NCBI GenBank assembly: GCA_028279545.1
Contig: JANQNN010000011.1
Coordinates: 1 to 64,000, forward strand
Reading direction: 5' to 3'
DNA from: Nitrosopumilaceae archaeon
GTDB taxonomy: Archaea > Thermoproteota > Nitrososphaeria > Nitrososphaerales > Nitrosopumilaceae
Length of the DNA: 64,000 nucleotides
Notes under the pieces: model-generated
What the model was told of the DNA's origin: nothing
The model's database searches: none
Seen by the model: the letters and a program-made list of their open reading frames with translations, nothing else
Made by a program: the position numbers and the translations under genes
In this document: piece by piece, positions 8,523 to 52,013 of the stretch
Layout: each line of letters opens with the position of its first letter
How positions within the stretch are numbered: the first letter of the stretch is position 1

Positions 8523-8548
8523 TAACTTTGAAGAAAAAATTCAATAAC

Positions 8549-30137: not shown

Positions 30138-30675
30138 TCTTTTTTTTGCCTCTTCTAATATCAATAAATACAAAGAAGCAAAAAAAATCCTTGATGAATT
30201 TGGAATTAATCTCAAGTTTTTCAAATGTGATCTTTTAGAAATCCAATCAAACTCTCTAAAAGAAATTGCAAAAAATAAAGCTGAACAAGCTTTTCAACAA
30301 TGTAAGAAACCAGTTTTAGTTGAAGACGATGGAATCTTTATCGATTCTCTAAAAGGGTTTCCTGGTCCTTATTCCTCATATGTTTTTAAAACAATTGGAA
30401 ACAAAGGTATCTTAAAACTTGTAAACCAAAATAGAAGAGCTAAATTTGTTTCAATTATTTCTTTTTATGATAAAAAAATTCATGAATCTTTTGAATCCAA
30501 AGTAAATGGAATTATATCTAAAACCGTAAATGGAATTGGTTGGGGTTATGATCCTATTTTCATTCCCAGTAAATCAAAAAGAACATTTGCACAATTAAAA
30601 AATAAAAATGAAATATCTCACAGATACAAATCCTTAAAAAAATTTTCTAGTTGGTATTTGCGTAAGTTTGAATAA
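30121..30675 (+). CDS. rdgB: XTP/dITP diphosphatase (RdgB/HAM1 family)
   Basis: House-cleaning pyrophosphatase that removes deaminated purine nucleotides. The ATG at 30121 gives 184 residues beginning MPQLSDLFFASSNINKYKE, matching the family; a TTG 18 bases earlier is less likely. Hallmarks are ASSNINKYKEA, EDDGIFIDSLKGFPGPYSS and GWGYDPIFIP. It overlaps bud32 at its 5' end and is convergent with the wyosine gene, overlapping it by 29 bases. Confidence 0.9.
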   Translation: MPQLSDLFFASSNINKYKEAKKILDEFGINLKFFKCDLLEIQSNSLKEIAKNKAEQAFQQCKKPVLVEDDGIFIDSLKGFPGPYSSYVFKTIGNKGILKLVNQNRRAKFVSIISFYDKKIHESFESKVNGIISKTVNGIGWGYDPIFIPSKSKRTFAQLKNKNEISHRYKSLKKFSSWYLRKFE

Positions 30676-31672
30676 ATCTCTCGATATTTCGTTTATTATT
30701 TTGTAATACAACAATTCTTGATACATAACTTTCATCCATAATTGAGAAAATTCTACTTTGTTTTACTAACTTTTCACTAAACTTTCTTACTTCTTCCATC
30801 TCTAACATATTTTCATGCTCTAATCTATTTATTGAGCGACCTATGTGCATGTAAGATTTAATTTCAACAAAATGAGGACTAGATTGTTCCAACAATTTTG
30901 CAAATCCTTCAATCATTTCTTCTTGATCATTATAATCTCTAATCAAAGTAATTCGAAGCACAGTTCTTGTATCCAAATCCTTTAACATACTCAAAGTTTT
31001 ATTCCATCTTTCCCAAGAATCATCGTATCTTGGTTGATTTATTCTCAAAAAGGAGTCATAATCTGAAGCATTTGTAGATAAATACAATTGTGTAGGCAAA
31101 GCATTTTCTTGTTTTAATTTTTGAATCATTTCTGGTTCTTGTCCATTTGTTACAAGAAAAATTGATTTTGTTTCCTTTAATGATTTTAAATATTTTATAA
31201 GTTCAGGAAGCTTTGGATACATTGTAGGTTCTCCTGACAGAGAAATAGCATAATGACTAGGTTTTAGTGATTCATCCAATCTTTTCTTATCACTTCTAGA
31301 ATCACCATAGTGTCCCATGATCAATTTCTTTCGTTCTTCCATTAATTTTTCCATTATCTCATAAGGTTCTGAAACATTTTCTGGTTCCATTTTCATAGAT
31401 TCATAAAATTCCATAGGCCTCCAACAATAGACACAGCGATTTTCACAATACATTCCAGCAGGAGAAAATTCCATGCAGCTGTGAGTTTGAATTCCATAAA
31501 ACTTGTGTTTGTAGCAATTCCCTTCATGTTTGAAGGATTTTTTGGTCCAATGACAAAGTCCTACTGTTGAGTGATCAGATACTCCGTACTTTGCCTTTTT
31601 TAGCTGATCAGAGATCATTGGTTTGATTTGAATTAATTGATCTTCTGCTACTATTTCACCAGAGCAACTCAT
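30647..31672 (-). CDS. taw1: 4-demethylwyosine synthase, radical SAM
   Basis: Builds the imG-14 tricyclic base at G37 of tRNA-Phe from N1-methylguanosine and pyruvate. The radical SAM triad is Cys76-x3-Cys80-x2-Cys83 (CENRCVYCW). A second cluster is indicated by Cys40, Cys53 and Cys66, each 12 residues apart, exactly the spacing known in archaeal TYW1. At 341 residues it is the archaeal form without the flavodoxin domain of the eukaryotic enzyme. Monocistronic, ATG start. Confidence 0.93.
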   Translation of the reverse strand: MSCSGEIVAEDQLIQIKPMISDQLKKAKYGVSDHSTVGLCHWTKKSFKHEGNCYKHKFYGIQTHSCMEFSPAGMYCENRCVYCWRPMEFYESMKMEPENVSEPYEIMEKLMEERKKLIMGHYGDSRSDKKRLDESLKPSHYAISLSGEPTMYPKLPELIKYLKSLKETKSIFLVTNGQEPEMIQKLKQENALPTQLYLSTNASDYDSFLRINQPRYDDSWERWNKTLSMLKDLDTRTVLRITLIRDYNDQEEMIEGFAKLLEQSSPHFVEIKSYMHIGRSINRLEHENMLEMEEVRKFSEKLVKQSRIFSIMDESYVSRIVVLQNNKRNIERFIQTYANTN

Positions 31673-31775
31673 AAACCGAAAATCAATTTTGGTTTACTTA
31701 AATTAATCGAGTTTTTTGTAGAATAGACAATTTCTGATCCAATATGATACCGATTTTACTCAATTTGGGAGTGAG

Positions 31776-31784
31776 GTTTAATAA
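31776..31784 (+). promoter_or_regulatory. TATA box for the three-gene TSP3-repeat operon
   Basis: GTTTAATAA, about 30 bases before the TTG at 31811. No comparable box is seen in the 12-base gaps before the second and third genes, so one transcript probably covers all three. Confidence 0.5.
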
Positions 31785-31810
31785 CTGGATCTTCCGGGTA
31801 AATTTGTAAG

Positions 31811-34246
31811 TTGAAGCCAAAGTACTTTGTAGCATTCCTAGTATTGCTTATAGCTACAATCACCAGCGTTCCCTTAAATCCAGCCATTGCGGCCAGTGAT
31901 TTGGATCGGGATGGTATAGCCGATGATATGGATAGCTGTCCCAATATACAAGAAGACTATGAGGGGGCTATTGATGGTTGTCCATCAAATTTTGTCCCAT
32001 GGTATGATGAGGACTATGATGGAATAGAAGACCACTTAGATAAATGCCCAAACGTTAGAGAAAATTATAATCAATATCAAGACTATGATGGGTGTCCTGA
32101 TGACTCTCCAGAAGTTGGAACATCAGTAGCAGACACTGATGAGGATGGATTTATTGACATTGTAGATACCTGTCCTACTCAACCTGAAACCTTTAATGGA
32201 ATTTTAGATAGAGACGGTTGCCCAGATAGTTTTAGCATGTCAAGTGATAGAGACAGAGATGGAATTTTAGATGGAAATGATTCATGTCCATTAAGTGCCG
32301 AAGTCTACAATCTTTTTGAGGATGAAGATGGATGTCCTGACAATGTACTAGACACAGAATTTGTTGATAGTGACAATGATGGAATACAAAATAAAATTGA
32401 TGATTGTCCAAACGAACCAGAAATTTTTAATGGATACCTTGATGCAGATGGTTGTCCTGATGCAATACTAGATTCAGACTTTGTTGATTCTGATGGAGAT
32501 GGAATTGCAGATAGATTTGATATTTGTGCTGACCAACCTGAAACCTTTAATCGATTTGCAGATTATGATGGTTGTCCTGATGAAGTACCACTTGTAATTG
32601 GTGGTACTAACGATTCAGATTTTGATGGAGTTTTTGATCAAGATGATTCTTGTCCAACAGAACCAGAAAGATACAATGGATATGAAGACTTTGATGGTTG
32701 TCCAGACATTCCACCTTATTCAATTGATAGAGATTCAGATTTAGATGGAATCTTAGACAGTGCAGATGATTGTCCAGAGATAAAAGAAATTTATAATTTA
32801 TTCCAAGACGGTGATGGTTGTCCTGATTACGTAAGTTCTGACGGTGCAGCACCTGATACTGATGGTGATGGAATCTTTGATTATTCAGATTTATGTCCAA
32901 CTCAACCAGAAACATTTAATGGATTTTTTGACAGAGATGGATGTCCTGATACTGATCCAAAAACTGATAGAGATGGAGATGGAATAATTGATGCTCTTGA
33001 CGAATGTCCATCTGTTCCAGAAACTTATAACAACTTCCAAGACATGGATGGTTGTCAAGACTTTGCTGATGATCAATATGGTTTTGATTTTGATGGCGAT
33101 GGCATTGGTGATTTGTTTGATAGTTGTGCATTAGAACCTGAAACAGTAAATGGTTTCCAAGATGCAGATGGTTGTCCTGATATTGCAATAGTTGATTCTG
33201 ATAATGATGGTATTCAAGATTCTTCAGACATGTGTCCTTCTGAAGCTGAAACTTGGAATAGATATCTTGACCATGACGGATGTCCAGAACAAGTTCCAGA
33301 TCAAGATACTGACTTTGATGGAATTTTTGACAGCGTAGATCAATGTATCGAAGAACGAGAAAGATACAATGGATTTGAAGATGAAGATGGTTGTCCTGAT
33401 ATTCCTGATTATCTAACAGAGGCTGACTCTGACTTTGATGGCATTTCAAATAATATGGATGAGTGTCCTCTTTATCCAGAAGTTTACAATTTATTTGATG
33501 ACTCTGATGGCTGTCCTGATTCAGTAGTTGATGGACAAAGCAGGGCCGACACTGATGGTGATGGAATTTTTGACTTAATTGATCATTGTCCAAATCAAGC
33601 TGAAACCTATAATGGAATTTTAGATAGGGATGGTTGTCCTGATGATTACATTCCATCAACTGATAGAGATAGAGACGGATTACCTGATGCTATTGATGCA
33701 TGTCCACAAAATCCTGAAACTTACAACAGACACCAAGATTCTGATGGATGTCCAGACATTATTTTAGAATTCTTTGATGTAGATTCTGATAATGATGGAA
33801 TCAATGATCCACTAGATGATTGTCCAATGGAAGCAGAAACCTATAATGGATTTGAAGACTTGGACGGATGCCCAGATGTTGATACTACAATGCCTGATTC
33901 TGATGGCGATGGTGTTGCAGATGTAATGGATCTCTGCCCAGACCAAAAAGAGACTTGGAATAGATATGTAGATTATGATGGTTGTGCCGACATTCTTCCT
34001 TCAGGACTTTCTTCAATGGATTCTGATGGTGATAGAATAATTGATTCACTTGACGAATGTGTTTATGAAAAAGAAACTTGGAATAAATACAATGATCTTG
34101 ATGGCTGTCCTGATATTGTTCCTGAACAATCCAGATACAAACATGACGCAGATCTAGATGATATAATTAATGATAAAGACATGTGTCCTCTCGAACCAGA
34201 AGATTATGATGGAGATCGAGATCATGATGGTTGTCCGGATTCCTAG
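31811..34246 (+). CDS. Secreted thrombospondin type 3-like repeat protein, 20 units (paralogue 1)
   Basis: A protein of 811 residues: TTG start, signal peptide (MKPKYFVAFLVLLIAT, AIAA cleavage), then 20 units of about 40 residues with pattern DxDxDGI-x2-x2-D-x-CP ... E-x-YN ... D-x-DGCPD. Asp positions match calcium-binding TSP3/EF-like loops; two Cys per unit suggest regular disulfides. Units 3-18 repeat with a six-unit period (units 3, 9 and 15 share the DRDGCP ending and PTQPETFNG-like text). Units 1-2 and 19-20 are end caps shared with the next two genes. No membrane anchor or enzyme domain. It probably forms a rigid calcium-loaded extracellular rod; role unknown. Confidence 0.85.
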   Translation: MKPKYFVAFLVLLIATITSVPLNPAIAASDLDRDGIADDMDSCPNIQEDYEGAIDGCPSNFVPWYDEDYDGIEDHLDKCPNVRENYNQYQDYDGCPDDSPEVGTSVADTDEDGFIDIVDTCPTQPETFNGILDRDGCPDSFSMSSDRDRDGILDGNDSCPLSAEVYNLFEDEDGCPDNVLDTEFVDSDNDGIQNKIDDCPNEPEIFNGYLDADGCPDAILDSDFVDSDGDGIADRFDICADQPETFNRFADYDGCPDEVPLVIGGTNDSDFDGVFDQDDSCPTEPERYNGYEDFDGCPDIPPYSIDRDSDLDGILDSADDCPEIKEIYNLFQDGDGCPDYVSSDGAAPDTDGDGIFDYSDLCPTQPETFNGFFDRDGCPDTDPKTDRDGDGIIDALDECPSVPETYNNFQDMDGCQDFADDQYGFDFDGDGIGDLFDSCALEPETVNGFQDADGCPDIAIVDSDNDGIQDSSDMCPSEAETWNRYLDHDGCPEQVPDQDTDFDGIFDSVDQCIEERERYNGFEDEDGCPDIPDYLTEADSDFDGISNNMDECPLYPEVYNLFDDSDGCPDSVVDGQSRADTDGDGIFDLIDHCPNQAETYNGILDRDGCPDDYIPSTDRDRDGLPDAIDACPQNPETYNRHQDSDGCPDIILEFFDVDSDNDGINDPLDDCPMEAETYNGFEDLDGCPDVDTTMPDSDGDGVADVMDLCPDQKETWNRYVDYDGCADILPSGLSSMDSDGDRIIDSLDECVYEKETWNKYNDLDGCPDIVPEQSRYKHDADLDDIINDKDMCPLEPEDYDGDRDHDGCPDS
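32132..34012 (+). repeat. Six-unit super-repeat in TSP3 paralogue 1
   Basis: Equivalent DxDxDG positions start at 32132, 32864 and 33548, giving periods of 732 and 684 bp (244 and 228 codons). Two full blocks and four of six units of a third are present. Confidence 0.7.
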
Positions 34247-34258
34247 GGTTTTTGGAAA

Positions 34259-36430
34259 ATGAAAAACTTCAAAGTTTTAGGGTTTTTACTTTTACTAGTT
34301 TCAGCCATTGGAGTTTTGCAAGGTACTGTATATGCACTTGAAACAAATGATAATGACGATGATGGTTTACCCAACAATGTTGACCTATGTCCTGTTTTGA
34401 AAGAAGATTATAGTCGAGAACATAGACTAAGTATTGATGGATGTCCTGCAGATTTTGTAAATTGGTATGATTGGGATTATGATGGAATAGAAGATCATGT
34501 TGATGACTGTCCCACAATAAAAGAAACCTATAATAGATTTCAAGATGATGATGGATGTCCTGACCTTTTGACAAATGGTGGAGAAAGTAACGTAGACTCT
34601 GATGGTGATGGTATTTTTGATTATTCTGATTTTTGTCCAACTCAACCTGAAACTTTTAATGGAATTTTTGATAATGATGGTTGTCCTGATGAAATTGTAA
34701 ATCTAAAAGATGAAGATTGGGATGGAATTCCTGATAATTTTGATGCATGCCCAGCACTTCCTGAAACTTATAATCAATTCCAAGACACTGATGGTTGCCC
34801 CGATGAGGTTTCTGATGATGGGGAAGTTTTTACTTTTCCAGATACTGACGGTGATGGAATAGAAGACAGATGGGATGCATGCGTTGAAGTACCTGAGAAT
34901 CTAAATGGAATTTTAGACGAGGATGGTTGCCCAGAACTAAAAGGAACTTCTGCTGAGGAACGCTTAGATTCTGATTTTGATTCAATTCCTGATTCAATGG
35001 ATGATTGTATTTTAGAGAGGGAAAACTTTAACAAATTTCAAGATGATGATGGATGTCCCGATGAAGTGGATTATGCCATAGTTGGTGATATAGACAATGA
35101 TGGAATTTTTGATAATGATGATTCTTGTCCATTTAATCCTGAAACCTATAATTTATTTGAAGACCATGATGGATGTCCTGATTTAGTTGCAGATGACAGA
35201 GTAATTGCAGATACTGATGGCGATGGCATTCAAGACAACTTAGATTTGTGTCCTACACAACCAGAACTTTTCAATAACTATCAAGACACTGATGGCTGTC
35301 CTGAAAGCTCTGTTTTTGAAAACGATGCTGATAGAGATGGAATTATTGATAGTTCAGATGATTGTCCACTGGTGCCCGAAGTCTACAATCACTTTGAAGA
35401 CACTGATGGCTGTCCTGATTCTGCAGTAGATGAACTTCCAATTTTTGAATTTGCAGATACTGATGGTGATGGAATTCAAGACAGATGGGATGCATGCATT
35501 GATGAACCTGAGAACATTAATGAAATTTTAGACTTTGATGGTTGTCCTGAAGTTTCAGGAGTAGTTGGTACTCAATTTAGTGATTCAGATTATGATGGAA
35601 TCCCAGATTATCTTGATCAATGCCCAACAATTGGTGAGAGATACAATAAATTCCAAGATGACGATGGCTGTCCTGATGTTGTTGAAATTCTAGTGTTTGG
35701 AGATTCAGATAATGATGGAATTATGGATGCAGATGATGAATGTCCACTAGTAAAAGAAACTTACAATAGATATTTGGACTCTGATGGTTGTCCTGATAAT
35801 GTAATTGATGGTAAGGATGTTGCAGATACTGACGGTGATGGCATACTTGATAATTCTGACTTGTGTCCAACTCAACCAGAAACCTTGAACAATCATCAAG
35901 ACCAAGATGGCTGTCCAGATGATTTCTTATCCAATATTGATAGCGACAACGATGGTATTATTGATGGTCTAGATAGTTGTCCAGGCCAACCTGAAACTTA
36001 TAATAAATTTGAAGATACCGATGGTTGTCCTGATAACGTTTCAGAAGAATTACCAGTTTACCAGTTCCCAGATGCTGATGGTGATGGAATTGAAGACAGA
36101 AAAGATCAATGTATTTTATTGCCAGAAACCTTCAATGATTATACTGATTGGGATGGATGCCCTGATTCTGTAATAGCAAAATCCAGTATTTCACCAAGAG
36201 TAGACTCTGATGGTGATGGATATTATGATGCAATAGATGAGTGTCCAACAAGTCCTGAAGATTGGAACAAATATGATGATCACGACGGTTGTCCTGATAT
36301 TTTCCCAGAACAAAAGCGATTTATTCACGATTATGATTTGGATGACATTATAAACGATAAAGACTCTTGTGTAAATGAACCAGAGGACTATGATGGTGAT
36401 AGAGATGAAGATGGATGTCCGGATCCTTAA
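34259..36430 (+). CDS. Secreted thrombospondin type 3-like repeat protein, 17 units (paralogue 2)
   Basis: A protein of 723 residues, ATG start 12 bases after the stop of paralogue 1, with signal peptide MKNFKVLGFLLLLVSAIG and VYALE cleavage region. It contains 17 calcium-type DxDxDG...CP...DGCPD units: two N-terminal caps (SIDGCPADF, then DWDYDGIEDH), three single units, two complete five-unit blocks and two C-terminal caps (SPEDWNKYDDHDGC and HDYDLDDIINDKDSC). Unit types A-E recur in fixed order. Exported and soluble; no anchor. The architecture equals paralogue 3 minus two blocks. Confidence 0.85.
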   Translation: MKNFKVLGFLLLLVSAIGVLQGTVYALETNDNDDDGLPNNVDLCPVLKEDYSREHRLSIDGCPADFVNWYDWDYDGIEDHVDDCPTIKETYNRFQDDDGCPDLLTNGGESNVDSDGDGIFDYSDFCPTQPETFNGIFDNDGCPDEIVNLKDEDWDGIPDNFDACPALPETYNQFQDTDGCPDEVSDDGEVFTFPDTDGDGIEDRWDACVEVPENLNGILDEDGCPELKGTSAEERLDSDFDSIPDSMDDCILERENFNKFQDDDGCPDEVDYAIVGDIDNDGIFDNDDSCPFNPETYNLFEDHDGCPDLVADDRVIADTDGDGIQDNLDLCPTQPELFNNYQDTDGCPESSVFENDADRDGIIDSSDDCPLVPEVYNHFEDTDGCPDSAVDELPIFEFADTDGDGIQDRWDACIDEPENINEILDFDGCPEVSGVVGTQFSDSDYDGIPDYLDQCPTIGERYNKFQDDDGCPDVVEILVFGDSDNDGIMDADDECPLVKETYNRYLDSDGCPDNVIDGKDVADTDGDGILDNSDLCPTQPETLNNHQDQDGCPDDFLSNIDSDNDGIIDGLDSCPGQPETYNKFEDTDGCPDNVSEELPVYQFPDADGDGIEDRKDQCILLPETFNDYTDWDGCPDSVIAKSSISPRVDSDGDGYYDAIDECPTSPEDWNKYDDHDGCPDIFPEQKRFIHDYDLDDIINDKDSCVNEPEDYDGDRDEDGCPDP
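34967..36196 (+). repeat. Five-unit super-repeat in TSP3 paralogue 2 (two copies)
   Basis: A-unit starts at 34967 and 35582, exactly 615 bp (205 codons) apart; the second copy ends near 36196. Unit order A-B-C-D-E is identical to paralogue 3. Confidence 0.75.
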
Positions 36431-36442
36431 GGAAGTGACTAG

Positions 36443-39400
36443 ATGAAAAAGAGTTATCTTTTAGGATTTTTACTTTTACTTGTATCAACAATTGGAATGT
36501 TGCCAAGTAGTGTATATGCTGCAAGTGCCAGCGACCTTGACGGTGATGGAGTTCCAAATAATGTGGATAGATGTCCCCATTTGCTAGAAGACTATGATCC
36601 AGAATACGGAAACAACATTGATGGCTGTCCTGCAGATTTTGTTCTTTGGTATGACTTTGACTATGACGGAATAGAGGATCATATTGATGACTGTCCCTCA
36701 GTAAGGGAAACCTACAATAACTTCCAGGATTTTGATGGTTGTCCTGATTCGGTTTCAGATGATGGCAAAGATTCTTTTGATTCTGATGGCGATGGCTTTG
36801 CTGATTTTCTTGACCTTTGTCCTAATCAACCAGAAACCTTCAATGGAATTGATGATAAAGACGGATGTCCTGATGATGCTGTATCATTAAAGGATACAGA
36901 CCAAGATGGAATTTCAGATAAGTTAGATGCATGTCCTGAGGTAAGAGAAATTTATAATCAATTTGAAGACTCTGATGGCTGCCCCGATGAGGTTTCTGAG
37001 ACTGATAAAGAATACACATTCCCAGATACTGATGGAGATGGAATTGAAGACAGATGGGATCAATGTGATGAACTTCCTGAGAATTTTAATGGTGTATTAG
37101 ATTATGATGGTTGCCCAGAAGACATGGGAGTTGAAAATACAGGTGTAATTGATTCAGATTATGACTCGATTATTGATTCAGAAGACAAGTGTCCACAAGA
37201 GCGTGAAAATTTTAACAAGTTTGAAGACGAAGATGGTTGTCCTGATGTTGTTGATTACTTGATTGCTGGAGATACAGATGGTGATGGTATTCCAAATCAA
37301 ATTGATGTTTGTCCATACCACAAAGAGACCTACAACTTGTTTGAAGACTGGGATGGTTGCCCAGACCAAGTAACTGATGGCTTGGTAACATCAGATACAG
37401 ATGGTGATGGCATTGTTGATAACTTTGATTTATGTCCAAACCAACCCGAAGTGTATAATGATTTCCAAGACACTGATGGCTGCCCTGACAAGTCAGTGTT
37501 AATCTTAGATACTGATTTGGATGGGATTGTAGATGCAGTTGATTCTTGTCCTGAAACTCCAGAAACTTACAATAATCACAATGACCTAGATGGCTGCCCC
37601 GATAGTGTTTCAACCGGTGAAGATCTCTATCTATTTCCAGACACTGATGGCGATGGTATAGAAGATAGGAAAGACCAATGCATCAATGAAATGGAAGTCA
37701 TGAATGATTATTTGGATTGGGATGGCTGTCCTGATGAGTTTATTGTCTCTCAATCTGGTCCAGTTGATTCTGATTATGACGGAATTCCAGATGATATTGA
37801 TAATTGCCCAACAGTAAGAGAAAATTACAACAAATACTTTGATGAGGATGGTTGTCCTGATATTGTTGATTATCTTGAATCAGGTGATACAGATAAGGAT
37901 GGAATTTTAAATATCGATGATGCTTGTCCACTCAATAAAGAAACCTATAACATGTTTGAGGATACTGATGGTTGCCCAGATTTTATAACTGATGGAATGG
38001 TAACCACAGATTCTGATGGCGATGGCATTGTTGATAACTTTGATTTATGTCCAAATCAACATGAGACCTATAATCAATTTCAAGATGCAGATGGTTGTCC
38101 TGATGAAATACTTTCAAAATTAGATATTGATAGAGACGGAATTGTTGATGTAATTGATTCTTGTCCAGAAACTCCCGAAGTTTACAATAACTTCCAAGAT
38201 GAAGATGGTTGTCCTGATGATGTTTCTGAAGAACTAGCTAGCTTCCAATTCCCAGATGCTGATGGCGATGGAATTGAAGACAGAAAAGATCAATGTATTA
38301 TGTTGCCTGAGACCATAAATGGTTATTTGGATTGGGATGGTTGTCCTGACACCGAGCGACAAAGTTTTAATGCTCCATTGATGGACTCGGACTTTGATTC
38401 TATTCCTGATATTAGGGATAACTGTGTATTCGAGCGTGAAAACTTTAACAAGTTTGAAGACTCTGATGGCTGTCCTGATGTTGTAAGTTATGTTCTAATT
38501 GAAGATATGGACCGTGATGGCATCCATGATCTTGATGATTCTTGTCCACTAGAACCTGAAACCTATAATCTATTTGAGGACACTGATGGTTGTCCTGACA
38601 TAGTTACTGATGATGAATTTATTCCAGATGCAGACGGTGATGGAATATTTGATGCATTTGACTTGTGTCCATCACAAGCTGAAACTTTTAACAACTTCCA
38701 AGATGAAGACGGATGTCCTGATGAAATCCTATCAACCTTAGACATCGATATGGATGGCATCTATGATTTCATGGACGCTTGTCCTAGCTCACCTGAGGTT
38801 TACAATAACTTCCAAGATGAAGACGGATGTCCTGATGATGTTTCAGTAGACCTTCCATCCTTTGAATTTGCAGATACTGATGGCGACGGAATTGAAGACA
38901 GATGGGATTCATGCATTGATGAACCTGAGAACTTTAATGGAGTATTAGATTCAGATGGATGTCCTGAAATTATTGGAGTAATTGGAGACCAAGTATCTGA
39001 TGAAGACTATGATGGTATACCTGATCATCTTGACCAATGTCCAACTATTGCTGAGAGATACAATAAATTCCAAGATGGCGATGGCTGTCCTGATGTTGTT
39101 GAAATTCTAGTGTTTGGAGATTCCGATAATGATGGTATTATGGATGGAGAGGATCAATGTCCATTAGCAAAAGAAACATATAATTTATTTTTGGACTTTG
39201 ATGGATGTCCTGATTCTGTAATTGATGGAAAGAACGTTGGAGACACAGATGGTGATGGTATTCTTGATAACTTGGACCTATGTCCTACAAGAGCAGAAAC
39301 CTTCAATGGAGTAAACGATAAGGATGGCTGTCCTGACAGTCTTGTAAACCTAAAAGATACTGATAGAGATGGACTTTCAGACAACATAGATGAATGCCCA

Positions 39401-39847
39401 AGAATGGCAGAAAACTATAATCACTTTGAAGACTCTGATGGCTGTCCAGACGTCTTTGAAGAAGAACTACCAGTTTACCAATTCCCAGATACTGATGGTG
39501 ATGGAATTGAAGACCGTAGAGACCAATGCATCTCAATGGCTGAGAATTTCAATGATTATTTAGATTGGGATGGCTGCCCTGACTCTCACGGTGCAGAATC
39601 AGCCTCAACTCAGAAGTTTGACTCTGATGGAGATGGATTGAGTGATTCAGTTGATATGTGTCCAACAAGCCCTGAGAACTGGAACAAGTATGCTGATCAT
39701 GATGGCTGTCCTGATGCTGTTCCTGAGCAATCAAGATTTGTACATGACTATGATTTAGATGACATTATCAATGATCAAGACGAATGTCCATTTGAACCGG
39801 AAGACTATGATTCAGACCGTGATCAAGACGGATGTCCAGACCGATAG
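36443..39847 (+). CDS. Secreted thrombospondin type 3-like repeat protein, 27 units (paralogue 3)
   Basis: A protein of 1134 residues, ATG start 12 bases after paralogue 2 with AAGGAAG upstream, signal peptide MKKSYLLGFLLLLVST with VYAAS cleavage region. It has 27 units: two N-terminal caps, three single units (types C, D, E), four complete five-unit blocks and two C-terminal caps. All units keep the Asp-rich calcium loop, and nearly all keep both Cys. Type E units carry Trp (RWD or DWDGCP) and an Asn-rich turn. The chain is strongly acidic, ends abruptly at DQDGCPDR and lacks any anchor. Likely an elongated extracellular calcium-binding structural protein; partner unknown. Confidence 0.85.
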   Translation: MKKSYLLGFLLLLVSTIGMLPSSVYAASASDLDGDGVPNNVDRCPHLLEDYDPEYGNNIDGCPADFVLWYDFDYDGIEDHIDDCPSVRETYNNFQDFDGCPDSVSDDGKDSFDSDGDGFADFLDLCPNQPETFNGIDDKDGCPDDAVSLKDTDQDGISDKLDACPEVREIYNQFEDSDGCPDEVSETDKEYTFPDTDGDGIEDRWDQCDELPENFNGVLDYDGCPEDMGVENTGVIDSDYDSIIDSEDKCPQERENFNKFEDEDGCPDVVDYLIAGDTDGDGIPNQIDVCPYHKETYNLFEDWDGCPDQVTDGLVTSDTDGDGIVDNFDLCPNQPEVYNDFQDTDGCPDKSVLILDTDLDGIVDAVDSCPETPETYNNHNDLDGCPDSVSTGEDLYLFPDTDGDGIEDRKDQCINEMEVMNDYLDWDGCPDEFIVSQSGPVDSDYDGIPDDIDNCPTVRENYNKYFDEDGCPDIVDYLESGDTDKDGILNIDDACPLNKETYNMFEDTDGCPDFITDGMVTTDSDGDGIVDNFDLCPNQHETYNQFQDADGCPDEILSKLDIDRDGIVDVIDSCPETPEVYNNFQDEDGCPDDVSEELASFQFPDADGDGIEDRKDQCIMLPETINGYLDWDGCPDTERQSFNAPLMDSDFDSIPDIRDNCVFERENFNKFEDSDGCPDVVSYVLIEDMDRDGIHDLDDSCPLEPETYNLFEDTDGCPDIVTDDEFIPDADGDGIFDAFDLCPSQAETFNNFQDEDGCPDEILSTLDIDMDGIYDFMDACPSSPEVYNNFQDEDGCPDDVSVDLPSFEFADTDGDGIEDRWDSCIDEPENFNGVLDSDGCPEIIGVIGDQVSDEDYDGIPDHLDQCPTIAERYNKFQDGDGCPDVVEILVFGDSDNDGIMDGEDQCPLAKETYNLFLDFDGCPDSVIDGKNVGDTDGDGILDNLDLCPTRAETFNGVNDKDGCPDSLVNLKDTDRDGLSDNIDECPRMAENYNHFEDSDGCPDVFEEELPVYQFPDTDGDGIEDRRDQCISMAENFNDYLDWDGCPDSHGAESASTQKFDSDGDGLSDSVDMCPTSPENWNKYADHDGCPDAVPEQSRFVHDYDLDDIINDQDECPFEPEDYDSDRDQDGCPDR
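37151..39618 (+). repeat. Five-unit super-repeat in TSP3 paralogue 3 (four copies)
   Basis: A-unit starts at 37151, 37766, 38384 and 38999: periods of 615, 618 and 615 bp. The near-constant length in phase with the reading frame points to block duplication by unequal recombination. Confidence 0.78.
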
Positions 39848-39895: not shown

Positions 39896-40858
39896 ATGCT
39901 TCCAAGATTTTCAAGTCGTGCATTTTTAGCTCCCATGGCAGGAGTAAGTGATCCTGCACTTAGGTTGCAATGCAAAAAGTTAGGAGCAGGACTAGTTGTT
40001 ACTGAATTTACAAACATTCACAGCATCATTGCAAAAGAAAAAGAACTAAAAGAAGACAAGAAAACAATTCAGAGTTTTATTGAATACTCTGAAAGTGAAC
40101 GACCTTTATCTGTTCAATTGTTTGGATCAAATCTTGAAGCTTTAGAAAAAGCTGCAAAGATTGTTGAACCTTACTTTGATATTATTGATTACAACATGGG
40201 ATGTCCTGCACCACATGTAACAAGACAGATGGCAGGAGGTGCACTCTTGCAAGAATCAAATCTTACACAACAAATATTTTCTACCTTGGTTGGTGCCGTA
40301 AAAAAACCTGTTACACTAAAGTTTAGACTAGGTGTTACTGATGCAAGCCGATACCTATTCAAAGATATTGCAGAAATTGCTGAAGATGAAGGAATTGAAA
40401 TGATTACACTTCATCCAAGAACTGTAAACCAGGGCTATTCGGGAGATGCTGATTGGAAAATGATAAAGGAGCTAAAACAAATTTCTTCTATTCCAATAGT
40501 TGGAAATGGCGACATAAAAACCCCCGAGGATGCAAAAGAAATGATTGACCAAACAAATTGTGATTATGTAATGATTGGAAGAGGGGCAATGGGCAATCCA
40601 TTTTTGTTTGAACAAATCAAAGATTATCTAAAGACTGGAACATATAATCAATATTCGTTTAAAGATAAACTTGATTCTTTTTTTGAGTATCTTCATCTCA
40701 CAAAACAATACAAAATAAAATTTGCAAACATCAAAGGACAAGCAATGAGATTTACCAAAGGATTGTCTCATGGCTCAAAACTAAGATTACAAATTACAAG
40801 TTCAAAAAATATTGAGGAACTTGAAAAAATTATGAAAAATGCTTACCAGCAAAACTGA
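39896..40858 (+). CDS. dus: tRNA-dihydrouridine synthase
   Basis: An FMN-dependent TIM-barrel enzyme reducing uridines in tRNA. The 320-residue protein begins LPRFSSRAFLAPMAGVSD, the flavin-binding N-terminus. The catalytic Cys is in NMGCPAPHV; HPRTVNQGYSGDADW and GNGDIKTPEDA complete the barrel, followed by a helical C-terminal domain. ATG start, about 48 bases after the TSP3 operon, with an AT-rich upstream region that could hold its own promoter. Confidence 0.92.
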   Translation: MLPRFSSRAFLAPMAGVSDPALRLQCKKLGAGLVVTEFTNIHSIIAKEKELKEDKKTIQSFIEYSESERPLSVQLFGSNLEALEKAAKIVEPYFDIIDYNMGCPAPHVTRQMAGGALLQESNLTQQIFSTLVGAVKKPVTLKFRLGVTDASRYLFKDIAEIAEDEGIEMITLHPRTVNQGYSGDADWKMIKELKQISSIPIVGNGDIKTPEDAKEMIDQTNCDYVMIGRGAMGNPFLFEQIKDYLKTGTYNQYSFKDKLDSFFEYLHLTKQYKIKFANIKGQAMRFTKGLSHGSKLRLQITSSKNIEELEKIMKNAYQQN

Positions 40859-44156: not shown

Positions 44157-44729
44157 TCACTCAAAGGATTTCCAGTGAGAGTCTATAATTTTTCTTAATT
44201 GCTCTACACTAATTTCTTCTAGATAATCTCGGTAAATTATGAATTTTTTCTGTCTAGCTTGGTTTTCTTCAAAATCATCTATGTTGTTTTTTGGTATGGT
44301 TCCATTTTTCCATTGTTTCATCTCAAAAAGCCAAATTTTGGAATCTGGATTTGAAAAATCAATATCATCAGTGCCAATAAAGTACATGTAACATTTGGAA
44401 GCTTGATTTAGTTTTTCATGTAGTCTTTCATAGGCAATCATTTGCCCAAATGGAATGTTTATTTTATCATTGTGAAATCCCTTAAACTCTAGAATAACAA
44501 AACCGCCGTTATGTTCAATTAACCAATCAAGGTCAGTTCCACCTGAGGTTACCATTCCGTTTACAATTAGGTTTCCAAGAATTTCTCGTCCACGTGTAAA
44601 CTCTTGTTCATCAAAGATTTGGTATTTTGCCTTTGGACTTTGGCGTATAGGTGGATTCATTTTTAGTTCTGTTGCACTTGATTTTTTCTCATAAAATGTA
44701 TCAATCAAGTCATCAGATTCACCGGGCAT
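44157..44729 (-). CDS. PD-(D/E)XK-like nuclease-fold protein, unknown role
   Basis: A 190-residue soluble protein. The stretch GGTDLDWLIEHNGG followed by FVILEFKGFH matches the PD-(D/E)XK active-site pattern: Asp in the first hairpin and Glu-x-Lys in the next strand, with helix AYERLHEKLNQ after it. A restriction endonuclease-like or Holliday/VSR-like fold is likely, but no methylase, helicase or defence gene is adjacent. It may be a housekeeping repair nuclease or an inactive derivative. Confidence 0.6.
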   Translation of the reverse strand: MPGESDDLIDTFYEKKSSATELKMNPPIRQSPKAKYQIFDEQEFTRGREILGNLIVNGMVTSGGTDLDWLIEHNGGFVILEFKGFHNDKINIPFGQMIAYERLHEKLNQASKCYMYFIGTDDIDFSNPDSKIWLFEMKQWKNGTIPKNNIDDFEENQARQKKFIIYRDYLEEISVEQLRKIIDSHWKSFE

Positions 44730-44798
44730 AAGGTACTTGAAAAATTACCTGATGATAAGATAGTTTGTAAAATAAAATAAAGTTTTGATATTTTCGAT

Positions 44799-45020
44799 TT
44801 AATGAGATAAAAATTCGCCATTACTACCTTTATACAAAATAAAGTAGTCCTTTGGATTTTTTCTATCCTTTTTTGCCTTTAGTGCGTCTTGATACATCTC
44901 AAAATGCTCAACTAGGTATAATTGACCATTAGAGTCTTCAAAATAATCAATTCCAACTAGATTAAATCCTGTATCAGGAGTAAGACTTTGTTTTTGTTTT
45001 TCTAGCTGGTTATTATCCAT
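44799..45020 (-). CDS. Small hypothetical protein
   Basis: Seventy-three soluble residues with ATG start, predicted strand-strand-helix-strand (VGIDYFEDSNGQLYLVEHFE, MYQDALKAKKDRKN, DYFILYKGSNG). No known motif. It lies downstream of the secreted-protein gene at 45070-46695 on the same strand and upstream of the nuclease-fold gene; the AT-rich gaps suggest separate promoters. Confidence 0.55.
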   Translation of the reverse strand: MDNNQLEKQKQSLTPDTGFNLVGIDYFEDSNGQLYLVEHFEMYQDALKAKKDRKNPKDYFILYKGSNGEFLSH

Positions 45021-45069
45021 GTGGGATGTTGTTTTTTGATAATTAATTAATAATTTGTCCTAGTAAATT

Positions 45070-46695
45070 TTAAGGATCTAAGTTTGGAGGATCAACTTGT
45101 GTCATTCCAGGATTAATCATAGTTGATGGCACACAGAGTTCTTTTTCCTTCTTTGTGTCTAGTTCTTCAGGACCAAAGTAGTTGTTTGTAAATACGCTAG
45201 TTCTATCATGGTTTTTCTCACCTTTTGATTTTTTGACATCATAGCATAGCAGTTGTTCTCCATAAACTCCGTTTGGAACCTTGATGACATTGTTTGTCTG
45301 CATTGAATTACAGAACATCCTTGGTTTTTTGACATCCATGGTTCGGTCCTCATCAAAGTTTGGATCATACACATCAGCTTTTATCTTCTTAAAGTTTGGA
45401 GTGCCCTTTGTAACTTTTACATCATAGCACTTGAAGTGATCAGGCTCTGACTGTAATGGATCAGGTGTAGAGGTGTGATTTTTTGCAGATGGTACTAGCA
45501 ATAATCTTTCATTTCTAATATCAAGTGAAATTGTACCAAATTGATTTTCAACTAAAACGGTACCTTTGGCTTTGTTTTGTTTATCATTTACCTTAATCTT
45601 GTATCCAACATAATGAGATTTCTCATCAACTAGACCCTCATTATTTTTGTCAACTGGGTTGAGTAGTCTGTAAAGATTGTCTACCTCAAAATCCCCTGAG
45701 ACAAATTGGTCTGTTAAAATGACATCAAAGTCATTAAACTTTGGAGTGTTTTTAGTCTCTTGAATTTGATATGTTAAAAAGTGCTCAGGAGCTGTTGGAG
45801 GAGGAATATCTTCACAAACTCTATCGCTAGTAGCTGTTGGTGGTGTTACCTCAATTTGGTTTGGACCACATACAGTCAAAGCTGTACACACTCTATCTGA
45901 AGTTTCAGTTGGTGGAGTTGATTCGTATTCATCAGCAGTACATACAGTCAATGCAATACAAGAACCCCCTGATTCATACTCATCATCAGTACATTCTGGA
46001 GGAGGACAACCATTAATTATTGCATTTCCCTGTGGCAAAGCCCCATTGTAGGTACCGCCACAGAGGTACATATCTCCAGGAGTGTTAATCATATTACTTA
46101 GTATATTGTTGATTCCGGTTCCTCCGGTATTTGAAATGACGATCGTGTCATTATTAGCAATAGTACCTACTGTAATAGACTGGATTCCTGTTCCAGTAGT
46201 ATTTGATATTGTAACAGTTCCATCGTTAGTTAGTGTCCCTGTTATATTGATGCCAGTTCCAGCTGTATTTGAGATTGTAATTGTACCATTATTGTTGAGT
46301 GCACCTGCAAGATTGATTCCAAAGATACCTGTGCTTGAAATAATTATTGCCCCATTATTAGTAAGGGTTCCTGAACCAATTAGATTGATTCCGGTTCCTC
46401 CAGTATTTGAAATTGTAATTGTTCCATTATTGGTAATGGTTCCCAATTGATTGATTCCAAGAGCAGGAGACGATATTACAAGAGTAACTCCCGACGGAAC
46501 AATAAGCTCATCTGTTGCAAAATTTACATAAAGAGTTGAAAGTGTACAGGTATCAACTGCCCATACTCCTCCCATTGTACCACAAAAAGTTGCATCAAGA
46601 GTGTTTGTAACTGCATGTGCATTAGGAGTTGTAGTAAATATGATTAAACTAAATATTGCAACACCTAGGGTACCTGTAAGAATTTTATTTCTCAT
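45070..46695 (-). CDS. Secreted modular protein 1: beta-helix-like repeats plus shared C-terminal region
   Basis: The start is taken as ATG 46695 (MRNKILTGTLGVAIF) because the shared promoter lies too close to ATG 46710. Signal peptide ends NAHA. N-terminal part: five repeats of about 22 residues (GTITNNGTITISNTGG, TGINLI), rich in Asn, Gly and Thr, typical of right-handed beta-helix surface proteins. Middle: two Cys-rich units (LTVCTADEYES, TSDRVC). The last 235 residues hold four repeats beginning HFLTYQ, HYVGYK, HFKCYDVK and LLCYDVK and ending PVDK, VPSAKN, CNSM and CVPS. No anchor. Unknown function; probably extracellular. Confidence 0.78.
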   Translation of the reverse strand: MRNKILTGTLGVAIFSLIIFTTTPNAHAVTNTLDATFCGTMGGVWAVDTCTLSTLYVNFATDELIVPSGVTLVISSPALGINQLGTITNNGTITISNTGGTGINLIGSGTLTNNGAIIISSTGIFGINLAGALNNNGTITISNTAGTGINITGTLTNDGTVTISNTTGTGIQSITVGTIANNDTIVISNTGGTGINNILSNMINTPGDMYLCGGTYNGALPQGNAIINGCPPPECTDDEYESGGSCIALTVCTADEYESTPPTETSDRVCTALTVCGPNQIEVTPPTATSDRVCEDIPPPTAPEHFLTYQIQETKNTPKFNDFDVILTDQFVSGDFEVDNLYRLLNPVDKNNEGLVDEKSHYVGYKIKVNDKQNKAKGTVLVENQFGTISLDIRNERLLLVPSAKNHTSTPDPLQSEPDHFKCYDVKVTKGTPNFKKIKADVYDPNFDEDRTMDVKKPRMFCNSMQTNNVIKVPNGVYGEQLLCYDVKKSKGEKNHDRTSVFTNNYFGPEELDTKKEKELCVPSTMINPGMTQVDPPNLDP

Positions 46696-46728
46696 ATTTG
46701 CCCGACGCATTTTATTGGCTGGTGGCAG

Positions 46729-46751
46729 TAATAAGTCTGATTAAGTGTTCC
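46729..46751 (-). promoter_or_regulatory. Shared promoter motif, secreted modular gene 1
   Basis: Minus strand GGAACACTTAATCAG then ACTTATTA. The same 23-base pattern occurs at 49574-49596 and 52014-52036. TTATTA serves as the TATA element; the GRACA and AATCA blocks upstream are conserved beyond what TBP/TFB binding needs. Confidence 0.65.
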
Positions 46752-46906
46752 AAAAAAAAATAAGACAAAATTTTTTTCCAAAAAAAACCAACAAATTGAT
46801 TTTCAATGCATTCGAATTTTTTTTTAAAACGCTTTCAGCAAATAGATCTTGATGTTTACAAAAATTTTAAAGGAAAAAACAATTGAATTTCACGAAACTA
46901 TTTGAT

Positions 46907-49531
46907 TTACGAGATTAATACGTTTGGAGTAACGATAGTAGATGGTACACACAGTTCCTCTACCTTTTTGGTCTTTAGTCCTTCATCGCCAAACTGGTTG
47001 TTTGTGTACACTTTTGTTTTCTTGTGTTTTGGTTCTCCTTTTACAGGATCTACATCATAGCATAACAGATTGGCTTCAGGATTTATGATTTGTCCTACAT
47101 ACTTGTCATGAGTTTTTTGTACGGGATTGCAGAACCACTTTGGATAGTCAACTTTGTGTTGTATTGTCTCTCCAAAGTTTGGATCATATACACTAACTAT
47201 TCTGTCTTCAAATTTGGGAGTGTTTTTAGTTTCTCTGACATCGTAGCACTTGTAGTGGTCAGAAGAATTGAATTGCAATGGATCTGGTGTAACGTCATGG
47301 TTTTTAGCTGATGGCAATAAAAGCATCCTTGGCTTTTTAACATCCAAGCTAATTTCTCCAAACTGGTTTACTACTTGGATTTGGTCATCCATACCTGAAT
47401 TTTGGTAACCCTTTTCTTGTTTTATCTTGTATCCCACCAAATGAGTAACAGTATCAATTAGACCTTCTTGGTTTTTGTCAACTGGGTTGAGTAACCTATA
47501 GAGTTGTTTTACCTTAAAGTCTCCTGAACCAAACTGGTCAGAGAGTCCCACGTATTTTGCTCTGAACTTTTGCTTGTCATTTTCTTTGATATTGTAACTC
47601 AAAAAGTGCTCAATAGTGGGTTCGGGTTTTGGAGGGTCATCGTTATTCAAAATTTCACAAGTATAAGATTCTCCTGCAATTGCATTTCCACTACATTCTG
47701 ATGATGGTGTTCCAGTATATCCTCCAGGGCCTGATTCACTGACTGAATATGGACCTGGGTTAATAGTAACTATGGTGCCAGCAATTGATCCTGCGAAATT
47801 ATTTTGCGATGGATTACTTGATGGAGAAATCATCATTGTAAAGTCTCCAGGTAATGCCGTACCTCCCTCATCATTAAGGACATCTTTGATTACAGTAAGG
47901 GATGCAGTAGTTGGTTGTGGATCAGGACATACAAGAGTTGAGACACACTCATCACCTTGAAGTTCTGTATCAGGACCACAGTTTGGTTCACACATTTGCG
48001 TTGCTTGGTTAAATGAAGTTCCCGTGCCACATGGAGGATCAATACATACTCTATCACTAGTGGCCGTTGGGGCTACTGCCTCAATTTGGTCAGCAGTACA
48101 TACGGTCAAGTCAGTACATTGCCTGTCTGATGTTGCAGTTGGTGCAACTGATTCATACTGATCAGCAGTACACACAGTCAAAGCCACACAAGAATTTCCT
48201 GAAAGATATTCATCTTGTGTACAAGATGGTACAACTCCTGAATCTACATTAATAAAAGTACAAGTAACGACATCATTTGCAGTAACCGTAACAGTCCCGC
48301 CAGGACTGACAGGACATTCAGTATCTCCTGTTGTAGATACAAATGCATAACCTGATACTAGAGTTTCATTTAGAATAGTTGCAGCATCAATAGTAACTGG
48401 AGTCAAGGCTCCTGAGGATACTCCAACTCCCCCTACAGTAAGTGCAAAATCATTTGGTCCTGCGGTTCCAAGTCCCTCATTGTTAACTTGTTTATTTAAA
48501 ATTACAAATGCTAAAGGATTGGCAGTAGTTCCTACATTTTCACAATTAATATAAGAATCATTTCCACCACCAGTATCAAAAGCTACATCTGTTCCTGGTC
48601 CACAATTAATTACATTGTCATGTCCGTTTCCAGGAGTAAAAATTACATCACTTCCATCTCCTGCATTAACCTGATTATTTCCTCCCCCAAGTGTCATTAC
48701 ATCATTACCTGGTCCTGAGGTAAAATTATCATGTCCATTTGCACCAGAAATAAAATTACTTCCACCACCTGCAACAACGGTGTTATTACCACCACCTGCC
48801 TGAATTACATCATTACCATTTCCTGTGGTTATGTTATCATGTCCACCAGCAGTTGTTACAGTATTCATCCCATGACCTGCAACAATGGTGTTATTCCCAC
48901 CTCCTGCTGCAATAGTATCATTATTGTCTCCAGTAGTAATGTTATCATGTCCACCCCCAGAAGTTACATTATTCACACCCTGACCTGCAACAATGGTGTT
49001 GTTCCCGCCAGAATCAACGATTGTATCATCTCCGTCTCCAGTAGTAATGTTATCATGTCCACCCCCAGAGGTTACATTATTCACACCATGACCTGCAACA
49101 ATGGTGTTGCCCCCACCAGAATCATTGATAGTATCATTATTGTCTCCAGTAGTAATGTTATCATTTCCGCCCCCAGTTGTTACATTATTCACTCCGGCGC
49201 CAGCTATTATGACGTTATGACCAGCACTGGCGTTAATAGTATCATTTCCACCCAAAGTCACAATACAGTCGTTTCCTGCGCCCGCATTAACCTGATCATC
49301 TCCTCCATTACCCACAATATAGTCAGCACCTGGGGTACCATTTAGAACTTCATTAGCAGCTGTTCCCAAAACAACATTGTAACTACCAATTACTCCTGGA
49401 CACGCAGCTGGAAGAGGAGGAACTGGTCCTGCAAATGCAGGTGTTGTAAATCCTACCAAAAGAACTAGAGCTAAAGTTCCCGCTAAAAGCTTGTACGAAT
49501 TGTTAAATCTAAATTTACTTTCTAATCCCAT
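46907..49531 (-). CDS. Secreted modular protein 2: RTX-like beta-roll repeats plus shared C-terminal region
   Basis: A protein of 874 residues with signal peptide (YKLLAGTLALVLLVGF, AFAGP). About residues 50-335 are RTX-type nonapeptides (GGGHDNITT, GDGDDTIVD), normally calcium-binding beta-rolls, repeated in 36-residue groups. Then come a beta domain, TNFR-like Cys units (LTVCTADQYES, TSDRQC), a prealbumin-like stalk (LTVIKDVLNDEGGTALPGDF) and the four-module C-terminal region beginning HFLSYNIKENDKQKF and ending ELCVPS. No type I secretion partner is seen, so Sec export via the signal peptide is likely. A surface or matrix role is inferred. Confidence 0.8.
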   Translation of the reverse strand: MGLESKFRFNNSYKLLAGTLALVLLVGFTTPAFAGPVPPLPAACPGVIGSYNVVLGTAANEVLNGTPGADYIVGNGGDDQVNAGAGNDCIVTLGGNDTINASAGHNVIIAGAGVNNVTTGGGNDNITTGDNNDTINDSGGGNTIVAGHGVNNVTSGGGHDNITTGDGDDTIVDSGGNNTIVAGQGVNNVTSGGGHDNITTGDNNDTIAAGGGNNTIVAGHGMNTVTTAGGHDNITTGNGNDVIQAGGGNNTVVAGGGSNFISGANGHDNFTSGPGNDVMTLGGGNNQVNAGDGSDVIFTPGNGHDNVINCGPGTDVAFDTGGGNDSYINCENVGTTANPLAFVILNKQVNNEGLGTAGPNDFALTVGGVGVSSGALTPVTIDAATILNETLVSGYAFVSTTGDTECPVSPGGTVTVTANDVVTCTFINVDSGVVPSCTQDEYLSGNSCVALTVCTADQYESVAPTATSDRQCTDLTVCTADQIEAVAPTATSDRVCIDPPCGTGTSFNQATQMCEPNCGPDTELQGDECVSTLVCPDPQPTTASLTVIKDVLNDEGGTALPGDFTMMISPSSNPSQNNFAGSIAGTIVTINPGPYSVSESGPGGYTGTPSSECSGNAIAGESYTCEILNNDDPPKPEPTIEHFLSYNIKENDKQKFRAKYVGLSDQFGSGDFKVKQLYRLLNPVDKNQEGLIDTVTHLVGYKIKQEKGYQNSGMDDQIQVVNQFGEISLDVKKPRMLLLPSAKNHDVTPDPLQFNSSDHYKCYDVRETKNTPKFEDRIVSVYDPNFGETIQHKVDYPKWFCNPVQKTHDKYVGQIINPEANLLCYDVDPVKGEPKHKKTKVYTNNQFGDEGLKTKKVEELCVPSTIVTPNVLIS
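48725..49264. repeat. 108-bp tandem DNA repeat encoding RTX block
   Basis: Equivalent positions (start of the TTATCATGTCC-like string) occur at 48725, 48833, 48941, 49049 and 49157, exactly 108 bp apart, with degenerate copies at about 48614 and 49265. Each copy encodes four nonapeptides (36 residues). Confidence 0.8.
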
Positions 49532-49573
49532 ACCAACTATCGCCCTAGTAAGGATAACTTTGTATTCTTAAAC

Positions 49574-49596
49574 TAATAAATGTGATTAACTGTCCT
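49574..49596 (-). promoter_or_regulatory. Shared promoter motif, secreted modular gene 2
   Basis: Minus strand AGGACAGTTAATCAC then ATTTATTA, about 43 bases before the ATG at 49531. The similarity to 52014-52036 continues upstream for about 20 more bases (plus-strand TGAAAATTTTAG and ACAAAAT). Confidence 0.65.
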
Positions 49597-49670
49597 GAAA
49601 ATTTTAGAACAAAATATCCATGTCTTTATTTTTTAAAAATTTAAAATTTTTAGAACTAATTTTCTTATAA

Positions 49671-51980: not shown

Positions 51981-52013
51981 ATTCGCCCGACGAAATTCTT
52001 TGGCCAATGGAGG

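Follow-up and report, generated by a model that had tools for sequence, protein, structure and literature searches.

Structure of the gene trio

In the window (the whole 64,000-nucleotide stretch of DNA analysed), which derives from a Nitrosopumilaceae ammonia oxidizer, three consecutive genes, designated T1, T2 and T3, encode proteins built of thrombospondin type 3 (TSP3)-like units. The genes and the features discussed with them are as follows.

8528-13705, forward strand: ortholog of the Nitrosopumilus S-layer protein (8c8k; 2288 bits), 18 kb upstream of the trio and outside the cassette
30647-31672, reverse strand: TYW1-like wyosine radical SAM gene, the conserved divergent upstream neighbour
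31771-31795, forward strand: putative cassette promoter element GTGAGGTTTAATAACTGGATCTTCC with the TATA-like TTTAATAA within it, conserved, 40 bp 5' of the T1 start
31811-34246, forward strand: T1, 811 aa, TTG start; signal-peptide-like N-terminus and 20 TSP3-like units, 40 Cys
34259-36430, forward strand: T2, 723 aa; signal-peptide-like N-terminus and 17 units, 34 Cys; five-unit (205 aa) super-repeat
36443-39847, forward strand: T3, 1134 aa; signal-peptide-like N-terminus and 27 units, 54 Cys; five-unit super-repeat of the T2 type
39896-40858, forward strand: tRNA-dihydrouridine synthase (Dus) gene, the conserved downstream neighbour

The open reading frame coordinates, which leave 12 bases between T1 and T2 and again between T2 and T3, and the Cys counts of 40, 34 and 54 confirm a sequence-only reading of the locus as three adjacent genes with 20, 17 and 27 units; its proposal of an operon is supported by the 12-base gaps and by the conservation of the genes as a trio. 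By inspection, every N-terminus carries a hydrophobic signal-peptide-like stretch, in agreement with the signal peptides that this reading had assigned, while no C-terminal anchor was seen in any of the three proteins, whose chains terminate directly at DGCPDx. A cytoplasmic location is not favoured, given these N-termini. The mature proteins contain ~22-23% Asp, with net charges of approximately -201, -180 and -282 for T1, T2 and T3, respectively; D and E together make up ~30% of the residues, and the pI is near 4. The TTG start of T1 is conserved, as it was found in 37 of 41 loci under the first-start rule.

Two Cys per unit and the affinities of the repeat

When the chains are split by Cys, the unit of T1-T3 can be written as DxDxDGIxDxxDxC - PxxPETYNxFxDxDGC - PD plus a linker. 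The core residues D1, D3, D5 and D12 are present in 64 of 64 units, far above chance; each of the 64 units has exactly two Cys, and the C1-C2 spacing is 16 in 61 of them. In Pfam, TSP_3 (PF02412) was the sole domain in T1, T2 and T3 (E = 5e-38, 2e-24 and 1e-55; whole-protein scores of 128.8, 85.4 and 185.6 bits, all above the 25-bit threshold), so that the HMM search proposed earlier as a check returned all three proteins, and the absence of any further domain alongside two Cys per unit was borne out. The full 36-residue TSP_3 unit was not matched in T1-T3; the best stretches cover model positions ~14-35 (~20 of 36). Thus, the assignment to the thrombospondin type 3-like class stands at the level of Pfam, but the second half of the unit (ETYNxFxDxDGCPD) differs from that of animal TSP3. 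Calcium-binding, secreted repeats of this general kind, as postulated previously, are indicated by the Pfam matches, the invariant DxDxD cores and the resemblance to 5WTL, COMP and TSP-2 in sequence and local fold.

Which type of TSP3 repeat do these units resemble? The only relatives found by sequence in the PDB were the TSP3 region of Capnocytophaga OmpA (5WTL), animal COMP and TSP-1; the calcium-bound TSP3 structures matched in sequence and local fold were 5wtl, 3fby, 1yo8 and 2rhp, among which 5WTL was the best solved structure for the trio by both measures. Animal thrombospondin and COMP (3fby, 1yo8, 1ux6) share the DxDxDG calcium loops and Pfam TSP_3 with T1-T3 but differ in the arrangement of Cys, and Pfam detected neither EGF nor C-terminal lectin-like domains of the animal type in T1-T3. 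Judged by sequence, two Cys per unit placed 16 apart is a prokaryotic arrangement, whereas the animal kind has one Cys per repeat, and T1-T3 appear to resemble bacterial TSP3 proteins (MtsC and OmpA 5WTL) more closely than animal thrombospondin. The OmpA region has two Cys per repeat as well; however, it is a short linker within the OmpA protein, and its C1-C2 spacing is ~12 without the extra DxDG loop, compared with 16 and the loop in T1-T3. The title of the work on the bacterial OmpA region (Dai 2017, cited in PMC6593220 and PMC12045341) speaks of calcium binding that depends on intra-repeat disulfides; therefore, by analogy, we infer that the disulfides of T1-T3 are likely intra-unit, unlike those of animal thrombospondin. 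On the same title, the earlier expectation of disulfide linkage as in animal matrix gives way to an intra-unit pattern as the likelier one.

Among NCBIfam profiles, the best for T1-T3 was that of MtsC (NF047638; E to 4e-62), a myxobacterial cell-cell cohesion protein, followed by TraB; the scores of T1, T2 and T3 (174.9, 140.1 and 210.6 bits) did not reach the curated MtsC cut-off of 350 bits. Tandem TSP3-like units are common to MtsC and the trio, while the trio is archaeal, consists of three tandem genes, is organized in five- or six-unit blocks and lacks the MYXO-CTERM sorting tail, which was absent from all three proteins.

Two other loci of the same genome encode TSP3 units. One open frame (C37:121500-123516), interrupted by the contig end, contains three cassette-type units (AENFNGFEDTDGCPD) followed in the same frame by an apparent cupredoxin domain. 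The other (C44:1-879, reverse strand) is a second TSP3 protein of the classic type, with ~39 aa units and an animal-like second half, and is also incomplete at the contig end.

Distribution and synteny in Nitrosopumilaceae

The named relatives are Nitrosopumilus, Nitrosarchaeum, Nitrosomaritimum and Cenarchaeum, and the proteins are found both in free-living species and in a sponge-type Cenarchaeum bin. T1 was matched at E <= 0.001 in 90 of 150 family genomes, nearly over its full length in ~50 of these, and its full-length protein identity in 37 aligned relatives is 56-76%. Outside Nitrosopumilaceae, the matches to T1 were only weak and generic. Within the family, T1 is absent altogether from several genera, and its role is therefore not essential.

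The position of the genes is conserved. Of the 40 loci selected because T1 matched them strongly, 39 have TYW1 upstream, and each of the 29 that reach past the cassette has Dus downstream. Checked genomes without T1 included one with TYW1 and Dus ~90 bp apart and another in which both are close and the cassette is missing; such a junction is an empty site, resulting from loss or dating from before gain. Across Nitrosopumilaceae the trio forms a syntenic cassette flanked by TYW1 and Dus, and the window trio agrees with it in full-length orthology, unit number and synteny. This family-wide synteny rules out horizontal acquisition by this species alone. Recent array expansion or an assembly artefact is also ruled out, as independent genomes contain the same trio and the repeats in the window are only ~60-84% alike at the DNA level. 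The sequence-only reading had called such a disulfide-rich matrix unusual for an archaeon, which does not hold within the family: many Nitrosopumilaceae species carry such genes, and TSP3-like proteins have been published for Nitrosopumilus (PMC6593220) and, as a cited thrombospondin-like structure, for one deep-sea AOA group (PMC7265257).

Near-constant unit numbers and block organization

Of 41 complete copies of T1, 38 contain 40 Cys, and 52 of the 64 genes that follow it in the cassette contain 34; despite the 56-76% identity of T1, the unit counts are close to constant (20/17/17). The unit lengths at each position, linkers counted, are also almost invariant among relatives. The copy numbers of tandem repeats tend to drift, yet the counts in the cassette are near-constant; therefore, something appears to hold the length, and near-fixed unit numbers and lengths would be expected if geometry matters.

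The mean unit identity by lag peaks at 5 in T2 (0.77 versus ~0.58) and T3 (0.74) and at 6 in T1 (0.68), and the super-repeat in the window measures 615 nt. Genes of the T2/T3 type that possess both end caps contain 12, 17, 22 or 27 units, the T3 of the window being two blocks longer than that of most relatives, and in one relative, a T1 of 26 units accompanies a partner gene of 22. Full-type genes thus change length by whole blocks (12/17/22/27; 20 to 26), the exceptions being one 14-unit hybrid and short extra genes of 6-8 units. When the three-block plan is read from unit lengths, T1 (2 + 6 + 6 + 4 + 2) may be taken as the T2 plan (2 + 5 + 5 + 3 + 2) with one unit more per block. T2 and T3 of the same genome are more alike at their ends than in the middle (N-cap 0.87 and C-cap 0.89, compared with ortholog averages of 0.76 and 0.81, uncorrected for relatedness), which suggests gene conversion and possibly means that the ends of T2 and T3 are matched.

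A conserved element upstream of the cassette

The element GTGAGGTTTAATAACTGGATC, whose first base precedes the T1 start codon by 40 bp, is kept in 38 loci including the window (25 non-redundant), at an almost equal distance from the start and with far less conserved flanks. Even with 3 mismatches allowed, nothing else in the 1.92 Mb genome matches it. In most relatives whose T2-T3 gap is 40-90 bases, GTGAGACTTAATAAATAC is found ~42 bp 5' of T3; in the window, where this gap is 12 bases, the T3 element is absent. Searches of ten genomes with GTGAGRYTTAATWA gave 15 matches, 14 of them within the cassette (5' of T1 and, in relatives, 5' of T3). The sole match elsewhere is at C1:705197-705210 of genome G028. 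We infer that the element acts as the cassette's own promoter, and its TATA-like core, ~34 bases 5' of the start, suggests a transcript with little or no leader. A leader peptide within the motif was set aside as unproven, because the encoded residues change among variants and the frame varies by species, and Rfam gave no match to an RNA element in 31400-32000.

Structure prediction, folding machinery and neighbouring surface proteins

AlphaFold models of T2 (46 sequences) and T1 (38 sequences) were of low confidence, with mean pLDDT values of 58.0 and 56.6 and pTM of 0.17-0.18. The Foldseek matches of these models to calcium-bound TSP3 structures were local (E to 3e-11, TM ~0.1 or less) and support the TSP3 unit, not the overall shape of the chain. 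Five DsbA-like (PF13462) proteins of the extracytoplasmic type were matched in the genome; the two proteins inspected combine an N-terminal hydrophobic segment with a CPFC or CHFC motif. VKOR and DsbB, which would reoxidize DsbA, were not found in the genome.

Other surface-type genes lie in the window. A subtilase (Peptidase_S8; 1270 aa; 14816-18628, forward strand) directly follows the S-layer gene region, and a group of large surface-type proteins occupies 44157-52007 on the reverse strand; within it, the protein at 46907-49531 combines RTX calcium repeats with SpaA_2 and DUF7450, and DUF7450 proteins are also encoded at 49671-52007 and 45070-46710.

Discussion

The explanation we favour, with some reservation, is that T1-T3 are calcium-loaded rods or struts of the cell-surface coat, locked by intra-unit disulfides and located near the S-layer; the trio is probably a standard component of the outer coat in these cells. 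Secretion, calcium loading, disulfides, rod shape and an S-layer or matrix role are all parts of this proposal, and a matrix role is plausible. The proteins would be exported by the Sec route under the control of the dedicated promoter motif and, once beyond the membrane, would fold as elongated chains saturated with calcium; in each unit, the DxDxDGxxDxxD loop and the DxDG loop that comes after it would hold the calcium, and the two Cys would close an intra-unit disulfide. Such acidic chains (net charge -180 to -282) would need calcium to fold, and calcium is plentiful, not limiting, in seawater. Because there is no membrane anchor or sorting tail, attachment would probably be non-covalent, to the S-layer or among T1-T3 themselves, and the chains would serve as fixed-length struts or tethers of the coat.

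This surface-strut explanation draws on the TSP_3 matches (E to 1e-55), the invariant Asp and Cys and the matches to calcium-bound TSP3 structures; on the cell-cohesion protein MtsC as the best, though below cut-off, NCBIfam match; on the near-constant Cys counts and unit lengths; on the extracytoplasmic-type DsbA-like proteins and the S-layer ortholog 18 kb away; and on the joint increase of TSP3-like and S-layer proteins reported for Nitrosopumilus under H2O2 (PMC6593220). Counted against it are the low-confidence models, the missing VKOR and DsbB and the genera without T1; moreover, with no visible anchor, T1-T3 could simply be released.

It is unlikely, by comparison, that the proteins are adhesins or cohesion factors, that is, surface-attached ligands for cells, particles or hosts as proposed for myxobacterial MtsC, in which length gives reach rather than coat architecture. 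The first rank of the MtsC profile, the small aggregates reported for Nitrosopumilus exposed to H2O2 (PMC6593220) and the occurrence of the proteins in both the sponge-type Cenarchaeum bin and free-living species would fit this role. However, T1-T3 have neither a terminal adhesin domain nor an anchor. Adhesin stalks often vary in length, unlike these proteins, whose unit number is nearly constant across species. A narrower version of the strut explanation, a family-specific three-part rod set with block-fixed length, the T1/T2 plan and its own promoter that spaces or cross-braces the S-layer lattice, also seems rather unlikely. Still more doubtful is a released buffer that keeps calcium (or copper) near the cell or blocks surface mineral growth: the ~30% of D+E, the pI near 4 and the lack of an anchor suit it, but fixed unit numbers, position-specific lengths and two Cys per unit would all be needless, and seawater calcium does not limit. 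A sacrificial thiol shield, in which peroxide oxidizes reduced surface Cys and other targets are spared from H2O2, is highly improbable in spite of 40, 34 and 54 Cys per chain and the 15-40x increase of TSP3-like proteins under H2O2 (PMC6593220), since the Cys pairs are placed as in the solved bacterial TSP3, whose disulfides are, by the title of that work, structural and intra-repeat, and extracytoplasmic DsbA-like proteins would oxidize them beforehand.

TSP3-like (TT3R) proteins of Nitrosopumilus, their 15-40x greater abundance under H2O2 and their likeness to a myxobacterial cluster have already been published (Bayer et al. 2019, PMC6593220). They are proteins of the same kind from the same archaeal family, and orthologs of T1-T3 are very probably among them, though the published ones may be others; the sections of that paper considered here concern abundance under H2O2 and make no mention of a cassette of three genes, of unit numbers or blocks, or of a promoter motif. 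In the open-access literature searched, neither the cassette nor the constancy of its units, its stepwise change by blocks or its promoter motif had been reported before. In the ocean, ammonia-oxidizing archaea rank among the most numerous cells, and, to our knowledge, the exterior of their S-layer is poorly known. A conserved, calcium-dependent, fixed-length surface set under one promoter motif would provide a concrete, testable component of their coat.
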